A stretch of 64,000 nucleotides of DNA, from NCBI GenBank assembly GCA_030950925.1, contig JAUZQO010000009.1, positions 1 to 64,000 of the forward strand. Direction: 5' to 3'. This document shows, piece by piece, positions 4,636-6,600 of this stretch (positions are counted from its first letter, which is position 1; every line of letters starts with the position of its first letter). The position numbers were made by a program, and so were the translations under genes. This DNA is from Mariprofundaceae bacterium. Lineage in GTDB: Bacteria > Pseudomonadota > Zetaproteobacteria > Mariprofundales > Mariprofundaceae. The notes under the pieces are model-generated. The model was not told the origin of the DNA, made no database searches, and saw only the letters and a list, made by a program, of their open reading frames with translations.

Positions 4636-6600
4636 TTAAAACCTTAACTGCATATTGAGTTTGAAATAAACTTTTCCATTATTTTCTAAAATAAGATGAC
4701 CATATCTATGTCTCGTTGTTGAAGGCGTGTCAAATTTAATGTTTTCAAACAAATAATTCTCAAGTGAACTTTTATCTGTCATATGAAATCCTACTTGCTC
4801 TCCTGTTTCTTTTACAACGATAATGCCATTGGATACATCCTTACCATCCCATTTTTTACCTGCAAAAAAACCTAATAATATCGACATTAAGAACCGCTTT
4901 ACTTTAACTTGTAGCGATATGAGGTCTGTATCAAATGTATGACCTTGCTTAAAGATATTTTCTAAATTAGTACTTATCGCACTGCTTCTGTTGAAGTAAA
5001 ACTCCTGCAACATGGATGATACTATGTTTGGCATTAAACTATCGACCATTGAAAGATTGTATGCCATTGATTCAGTTTCAATCTTACTAAATTTAAAGAT
5101 TCCGCCTAGAGCATGGATTTTCTCAATTCTATCTTTTAATTTTGTTCTCGTGTTGATGGAATTAACCTTATCAATATGCCTTTCATGAAGGTTTAAAATT
5201 TCAAAAATAAAATTCGTATTTCCAGACGCATTAAGCAAAGTAGGCTTGCTTCCTAGATAGGATTTAATCCCAAATCCTTCATCTTTTTTTGATATTTGAT
5301 GATTATTTATATCTAAAACAATATCTGATTTTTGCTGGCTATTGCCGCCTTTCACCATCGAAATGCCTAATTTATCTTGTATCATATCAAATTCAGGAAT
5401 GGTGAAAGTTCTACTTCCAGAACGAATTGAGTGAGCTAAATCGCTTAACACCGTGCTATTTAAAAAATCAGATACTCGGATTTTTTCCTCAATATCAGTG
5501 CGGTCATTTTTAACCAGAACCCAATCATTTTCTAACAAATAATAGGACGCTTCACTATTTAATGTTGTTACTTTTGTCACATTAAAATGATTCGCATCAT
5601 TGATAATATTTAAATTTTTATCGGCAAGCTTTAATTCTCTGTCATTTAAAATTTTTAAGAATGAGTATAATTCTGTCCACTCACCCTTATTCTTTGTTTT
5701 CACCCTATTGCCTCCTGTGCTTGGTAATGATTTTAAATGTTCAATCATCACCTTGCCACATGCCTTAATCGCATCAATAGCAACACTGTTACCCAACTGC
5801 TTCATGGCTTGTGTTTTGGCAACTGGAAATTCAAAACTATCTGGAAAACCTTGCATTTTTTTTGCTTGTTCAGGCATGATTTTTTTTATCTGACCATCAA
5901 CAAGATATGAATCCCAGTTTCTTCTATCCTTGATGTTTGAGCCACGCCCACCAACCCTCAAAGTAAACCCGATTTCCCTAGAACACTGACCATTCCAAAC
6001 ATCAGACATGTTAAATTTTAGAGGTGTTTTGGGAGGAAATGAGAAGCTCGACAATACCCCTTCATTTTTAAATCCAATCATAAATGTTCGGGGCCTTAAT
6101 TGTGGTAAACCATAATCCGATGCTTTGACGACTTGATGATGAAAGCTATACCCCAGTTCATTTTCAATCATATCCCTGATGATTTTGAAAGTATTACCAT
6201 GATCATGATTGATAATACCTCGCACATTTTCTAAAAAAAATGCCTGTGGCTTTTTTGCTTCTAATATTTCAACAATATTAAAAAATAAATTACCCCGCTC
6301 TGATTGATGCGTATCATTAAACCCTCTTTTATGACCTGCTTGACTAAAAGGCTGGCATGGAAAACCCGCACATAAAACATCAAAATCGGGTAAATCTATG
6401 GGATTTATTTTTCTTATATCATCATTAAATATACCACTATGAAACAAATTAGGGTTGCTTTTCTTGAAATGATGTTCATAGGTTTTTCTAGCAAAAGGAT
6501 CTATTTCGGAAGCAAATACACACGTTCCACCGAGTGATTCCATGGCAATATGAAAACCGCCAATGCCAGCAAATAAGTCTATAAATTTAAAGTCACTCAT
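4636..6600 (-). CDS. Fused C5-cytosine DNA methyltransferase and HpaII-type restriction endonuclease
   Basis: One 654-residue reading frame carries both activities. Residues 1-295 form a C5 cytosine methyltransferase: AdoMet motif DLFAGIGG (8-15), catalytic PCQ with Cys82, ENV (124-126), QLRPR (167-171), a short target-recognition region around FTLRVGGRGS (212-221), and GNSV (270-273). Residues 300-654 match HpaII endonuclease features: GEWTELY (306-312), a PD-(D/E)xK-like core with Asp426 and GIK ending at Lys446, and TPSTTRH near 625. HpaII cuts CCGG, so methylation and cleavage at CCGG is the best guess. R.HpaII and M.HpaII are normally separate proteins. The gene is clearly more AT-rich than its neighbours and lies between a HAD phosphatase and ligA, so recent transfer is likely. 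No vsr, controller or second specificity gene accompanies it. Confidence 0.85.
   Translation of the reverse strand: MSDFKFIDLFAGIGGFHIAMESLGGTCVFASEIDPFARKTYEHHFKKSNPNLFHSGIFNDDIRKINPIDLPDFDVLCAGFPCQPFSQAGHKRGFNDTHQSERGNLFFNIVEILEAKKPQAFFLENVRGIINHDHGNTFKIIRDMIENELGYSFHHQVVKASDYGLPQLRPRTFMIGFKNEGVLSSFSFPPKTPLKFNMSDVWNGQCSREIGFTLRVGGRGSNIKDRRNWDSYLVDGQIKKIMPEQAKKMQGFPDSFEFPVAKTQAMKQLGNSVAIDAIKACGKVMIEHLKSLPSTGGNRVKTKNKGEWTELYSFLKILNDRELKLADKNLNIINDANHFNVTKVTTLNSEASYYLLENDWVLVKNDRTDIEEKIRVSDFLNSTVLSDLAHSIRSGSRTFTIPEFDMIQDKLGISMVKGGNSQQKSDIVLDINNHQISKKDEGFGIKSYLGSKPTLLNASGNTNFIFEILNLHERHIDKVNSINTRTKLKDRIEKIHALGGIFKFSKIETESMAYNLSMVDSLMPNIVSSMLQEFYFNRSSAISTNLENIFKQGHTFDTDLISLQVKVKRFLMSILLGFFAGKKWDGKDVSNGIIVVKETGEQVGFHMTDKSSLENYLFENIKFDTPSTTRHRYGHLILENNGKVYFKLNMQLRF

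Follow-up and report, generated by a model that had tools for sequence, protein, structure and literature searches.

The 64,000-nucleotide stretch analyzed here (the window) comes from contig JAUZQO010000009.1 of a Mariprofundaceae bacterium (host genome G000) and carries a gene at positions 4636 to 6600 (ATG at 6600, stop at 4636 to 4638) that encodes a protein of 654 amino acids. The gene and all of its features described below lie on the minus strand. The original prediction had reported an uninterrupted 654-codon frame with exactly these ends, without stating the strand, and had described a C5-cytosine methyltransferase and an HpaII endonuclease in one chain. No internal stop codon was found, and the Pfam searches that it had proposed matched both halves: PF00145 (DNA_methylase) at residues 4 to 191 plus a second stretch (254 bits, cutoff 22) and PF09561 (RE_HpaII) at residues 304 to 654, covering model positions 1 to 359 of 359 (324 bits, cutoff 25, E = 1e-96). 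The PADLOC result agreed with this domain assignment.

The methyltransferase domain (residues 1 to 291, positions 5728 to 6600) contained motifs I (DLFAGIGGF), IV (PCQ), VI (ENV), VIII (QLRPR, of the QxRxR form), IX, and X (GNSV) in order and was assigned by PF00145, TIGR00675, phmmer, and Foldseek. The codon of its catalytic Cys82 in the PCQ motif (6355 to 6357) was invariant in the family alignment A1. The nuclease domain (residues 304 to 654, positions 4639 to 5691) contained the putative catalytic residues that are common to fused and separate HpaII nucleases in alignment A2, namely the invariant Glu307 of the GEW helix (codon at 5680 to 5682), the conserved putative metal ligand Asp426 (5323 to 5325), and the invariant Lys446 of the GIKS strand (5263 to 5265). 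An AlphaFold model of the nuclease (4639 to 5697) was confident (pLDDT 89, pTM 0.88) and placed Asp426 where one strand begins and Lys446 in the next strand, an arrangement that suggests the PD-(D/E)XK enzymes. Searches of the PDB gave no sequence match with a profile and no Foldseek match of the model at E ≤ 0.001, which leaves the fold class unconfirmed; the HpaII family seems to be without a solved structural relative.

The junction between the two halves was uninterrupted in genome G005, whose copy is 96% identical, and in some 20 other genomes (56 to 82% identity), the remaining relatives being partial at contig ends or carrying deletions or insertions; therefore, it is not a chance joining or an assembly error in the window. 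In pairwise comparisons of the window gene with its neighbors, the ratio of nonsynonymous to synonymous substitutions (dN/dS) was well below 1 for both halves. These results confirmed that the window gene is an intact fusion of a C5-cytosine methyltransferase and a complete HpaII-family nuclease, with restriction and methylation domains in one uninterrupted chain as in Type IIC enzymes.

The fused gene was located between ligA and a HAD gene in G000 and G005, with gaps of 16 nt and 2 nt to its neighbors in G000 and no companion gene. In the congeners G010 and G007, ligA and the HAD gene abut directly, so the insert consists of the fused gene alone and the cassette is a single gene of about 2 kb. 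G007 also carried, at the end of a contig, the first part of a fused gene that follows another gene.

Relatives, origin, and the two enzyme classes

A single scan of genome contigs gave 24 loci, and a genome search gave G005 (96%), G011 (81%), G266, and others. The hosts belong to the Zetaproteobacteria, Thiotrichaceae, Methylococcales, Neisseriaceae, Cardiobacteriaceae, and Alphaproteobacteria among the Proteobacteria and, outside them, to the Bacteroidota, the Campylobacterales (Campylobacterota), and the Gracilibacteria. Metagenome-assembled genomes make up most of these hosts, and one host, Flavivirga rizhaonensis, is a named strain. The fused sequences together formed one clade in the nuclease tree (support 100/100) on a long stem of 1.48 changes per site, with deeper branching unsure where long branches meet. 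This clade indicates a single fusion event, and the closely related fused copies in different phyla imply horizontal spread. Loss of a stop between the gene for a methyltransferase with a short recognition domain and a downstream HpaII nuclease gene probably produced the fusion once, after which the fused gene spread as a solitary gene. At locus L059, a methyltransferase of the same short class and an HpaII-family nuclease are encoded in the same frame with only two stop codons between them, which is likely the precursor state expected before fusion; L064 also encodes the two proteins separately. A second fusion of 698 amino acids, on the viral-collection contig L069, joins an M.HpaII-class methyltransferase with a long recognition domain to an HpaII nuclease and is independent of the main family.

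Several other arrangements were observed among these loci. At L069 (1 to 6088), the fused gene stands in a row with two more genes for C5 methyltransferases and a large one for a GHKL-type ATPase-like protein. A Saprospiraceae metagenome-assembled genome (G408) carried two different fused genes (C365 and C528). In F. rizhaonensis, a TaqI-type restriction endonuclease gene (L015:7967-8617) directly follows the fused gene, and a Bathymodiolus symbiont draft showed a frameshift near methyltransferase residue 45 (L017:3185-3300), possibly an assembly error.

The methyltransferase half matched M.HhaI in Foldseek and in phmmer (E = 3e-59), the latter as two blocks separated by 12 residues compared with 55 in M.HhaI. 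The shortened target-recognition region (residues 190 to 240, positions 5881 to 6033) contains a conserved RVGGRGSxxxDRRNWDxYxV signature. The spacing between motifs VIII and X, whose usual size is typical of these enzymes but not strictly defining, was 98 in the window gene and 98 to 99 in all fused copies, in contrast to 124 to 150 in the ordinary C5 methyltransferases encoded at these loci. A first reading was that the recognition domain is missing and the nuclease must supply specificity. An initial scan of viral contigs with a single-sequence query gave no matches, but a later viral search brought up stand-alone enzymes of the short class on phage-like contigs (L060-L068 and L070-L073; phrog_116). 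These proteins of 283 to 318 amino acids are 54 to 62% identical to the fused methyltransferase half, have the same spacing and signature, and lack the nuclease domain, which weakens the first reading and shows that the short spacing did not result from the fusion. In the methyltransferase tree, the fused copies nested among these stand-alone enzymes, and the partners of separate HpaII nucleases formed another clade. The HpaII-type identity given in the original prediction therefore held for the nuclease, which is a full member of its family, but not for the methyltransferase, which falls outside the M.HpaII class.

The fixed short spacing may also be read as a sign that the methyltransferase, with little recognition domain of its own, relies on the HpaII domain to recognize DNA, so that both activities would share one specificity module as they do in Type IIG enzymes. 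Methylation and cleavage would then be physically tied to the same recognition event, and damaged relatives would keep the C-terminal part of the nuclease in frame because methylation needs it. In agreement with this, L022 and L023 have in-frame deletions (residues ~292 to 424 and ~292 to 439) that remove about 130 nuclease residues and keep the C-terminal 215 to 230, with the methyltransferase intact and dN/dS not raised. The two loci are not sisters in the tree, and the deletions are independent. However, two deletions would both be in frame with a 1-in-9 chance, and they may be recent. Together with the separate genes at L059 and L064 and the stand-alone viral-contig enzymes, this makes a shared recognition module unlikely.

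Other relatives also carried nuclease lesions with an intact methyltransferase: Asp426 is replaced by Asn in L006, and in G269 (L056 and L057, two contigs, 96% identical) an IS5-type transposase gene interrupts the fused gene at residue ~391. These lesions would fit a gene whose nuclease is dead or dying and which acts only as a solitary methyltransferase, as an epigenetic mark or in antirestriction. What is left of the nuclease in damaged copies showed a pairwise dN/dS of about 0.06 to 0.1, which was not raised; the lesions may therefore be of recent date, or the remnant may be useful. We consider such a loss of the nuclease unlikely too, as Glu307, Asp426, and Lys446 are intact in the window copy and in most relatives, the whole domain is conserved up to the C terminus, and no genome in the genus sample has a stronger CCGG depletion than the host (see below). 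For the window copy itself, an inactive nuclease was set aside on the basis of these intact residues.

Depletion of CCGG in host genomes

Palindrome counts were compared with expectations from a second-order Markov model, using a 122-kb sample of G000 and 16 palindromes. CCGG occurred 10 times in G000 against 159.3 expected, a 16-fold depletion that was the lowest of the 16 palindromes. G005, which has the fused gene, showed 10 of 85 expected sites, and congeners with a separate HpaII system showed 3 of 44 (G002) and 7 of 38 (G004). The HpaII-free congeners had 48 of 141.6 (G010, empty site) and 38 of 104.6 (G009, 99% complete), so that the level in G000 was about five times below that in G010. 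G003 (6 of 21) and G008 (4 of 27.5) are incomplete genomes. Other hosts of fused genes showed 1 of 113 (G400), 1 of 161 (G403), 1 of 41 (G402), and 17 of 82 (G406), but only 14 of 24.5 in G404. No CCGG depletion was found in the genomes without HpaII from other genera (G012 to G015 and G018).

Depletion alone was not counted as proof, as GGCC and GATC were also low; congeners without HpaII and an M.HaeIII homologue resident in G000 served as controls. This homologue (G000:C47, L201:1729-2772), which matches the structurally solved M.HaeIII at E = 6e-126, likely targets GGCC and would account for the GGCC depletion, which was alike in G000, G005, G009, and G010 at about 0.25 of expectation (0.28 in G000). 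The match between this depletion and the resident homologue indicates that the method responds to known enzymes. Two other signals were tried and rejected. CCGG was scarce within 22 fused genes (4 seen, 35 expected), but GGCC, GATC, and TCGA were also low there, and deamination of CCGG was unsupported as CTGG was not in excess (0.77 of expected). Within the window (1 to 64,000) and across the genus, GATC reached about half of its expected count.

When further C5 methyltransferases from G000, G400, G404, G406, and G407 were sampled, none was recognized as an M.HpaII-class enzyme, and one from G407 belongs to the EcoRII/Dcm class; the fused enzyme therefore probably protects its own sites. Tested HpaII-type pairs from elsewhere act at CCGG (PMC8099122, PMC11837570). 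The CCGG target named in the original prediction is thus well supported on the genome and nuclease side. Because the methyltransferase half belongs to another recognition-domain class than M.HpaII, its CCGG specificity is proposed from that of its nuclease partner. G000 also has a second restriction-modification locus (G000:C48, L038:2579-4482), in which a 293-amino-acid EcoRII/Dcm-class C5 methyltransferase, with a recognition domain about 35 residues shorter than that in L009:8962-10032, overlaps a 341-amino-acid gene with a subthreshold EcoRII-C match (E = 4e-5).

Proposed control of the two activities and comparison with known systems

The linker between the domains (residues 292 to 303, positions 5692 to 5727) differs in length and sequence between family members and has low model confidence. 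In the window it reads AGGAGG CAATAGG GTG AAA ACA AAG AAT AAG GGT GAG TGG, with a perfect Shine-Dalgarno-like AGGAGG (5711 to 5716) 7 nt before an in-frame GTG at codon 300 (5701 to 5703). The duplex energy with the anti-Shine-Dalgarno sequence was -10.3 kcal/mol, compared with -3.9 kcal/mol at the start of the full-length gene. The GTG is placed exactly where stand-alone HpaII nucleases begin, and a free nuclease of 355 amino acids could therefore be initiated internally. The original prediction had claimed that, once fused, the two activities can no longer be timed by separate expression; the motif undercuts this claim without refuting it.

These features raise the possibility of a two-product gene, in which the GTG is the true nuclease start, the free nuclease restricts, and the 654-amino-acid read-through product acts mainly as a methyltransferase. 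An ATG or GTG was present in the linker of 20 of the 25 family members examined. Energies of -5 or lower were found at 10 of the 20 linker starts, compared with 9% of 267 other internal ATGs. The motif was absent in Bacteroidota members, which is expected of this phylum. However, the excess over synonymous shuffles was modest (pooled P = 0.007), single genes were rarely significant, and the relatives are not independent. Moreover, L007, L008, L009, L010, and L017 have no ATG or GTG in the linker, although their fusion is otherwise intact as far as it was seen, so the family can do without the internal start. A working second start or a relic of the former nuclease gene may explain the motif, and we regard the two-product gene as a serious but doubtful alternative.

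Altogether, the gene is probably a single-gene Type II restriction-modification cassette of one fusion origin that spread horizontally, with both halves most likely acting at CCGG. Its N-terminal 5-methylcytosine (m5C) methyltransferase half would protect host CCGG sites, and its C-terminal HpaII-type, PD-(D/E)XK-like half would cut unmodified CCGG, probably in the dimeric form that is common to ordinary Type II nucleases. As an alternative to timing by separate expression, control probably lies in assembly, with the monomer able to methylate and the dimer required for cleavage, as proposed for Type IIC enzymes (PMC12707154). The internal start may supply extra free nuclease besides the fused chain in the window gene and in many related copies. 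Besides the dispensability of that start, some points weigh against this reading. G008, in which no HpaII was found (82% complete), had 4 of 27.5 expected CCGG sites (0.15), and the HpaII-free congeners already avoid CCGG about threefold. The methyltransferase does not belong to the clade of enzymes that accompany ordinary HpaII nucleases, so the two halves may differ in specificity, and the specificity of the nuclease could have shifted along its long stem.

Compared with the HpaII pairs of an Acinetobacter pittii plasmid and the congeners G001, G002, and G004, in which a PF09561 nuclease accompanies an M.HpaII-class methyltransferase at CCGG, the window gene has the same full-length nuclease family, order of methyltransferase and nuclease, catalytic residues, and CCGG depletion in carriers. 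It differs in being one chain, in the class of its methyltransferase, whose closest relatives are the stand-alone short enzymes, and in a nuclease that is only 33 to 36% identical to those of separate systems. Type IIC and IIG enzymes (Eco57I, MmeI, BcgI, HaeIV, TstI, and BtgZI) likewise combine methylation and cleavage in one chain. However, the proved examples are N6-methyladenine (m6A) methyltransferases that mostly cut outside their site (PMC3039593, PMC4081073), and Type IIG enzymes have a gamma-class m6A domain, whereas the window gene combines an m5C enzyme with a nuclease whose family recognizes its own site when alone. The only m5C enzyme among the proved Type IIC enzymes tabled in 2011 was RM.Eco29kI, an artificial fusion with a palindrome-cutting Type IIP nuclease in which both activities were retained, and natural m5C fusions were predicted as possible (PMC3039593). 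RM.Eco29kI is engineered, in the reverse order, and has another nuclease (CCGCGG); the window gene would be a natural m5C Type IIC-like enzyme, although such fusions may have been predicted earlier, as REBASE lay outside our search. The natural, widespread, single-origin family and the second case at L069 make it testable how a cell survives acquiring protection and attack in equal amounts from one chain, and whether their balance depends on an internal start or on assembly. The mobile HpaII/HpaII-CM element of katablepharid mitochondria, which is free of its own CCGG site (PMC8099122), is also an HpaII-type methyltransferase and nuclease unit, but it comprises two separate genes. The fusion described here is a one-gene cassette that has crossed phyla.
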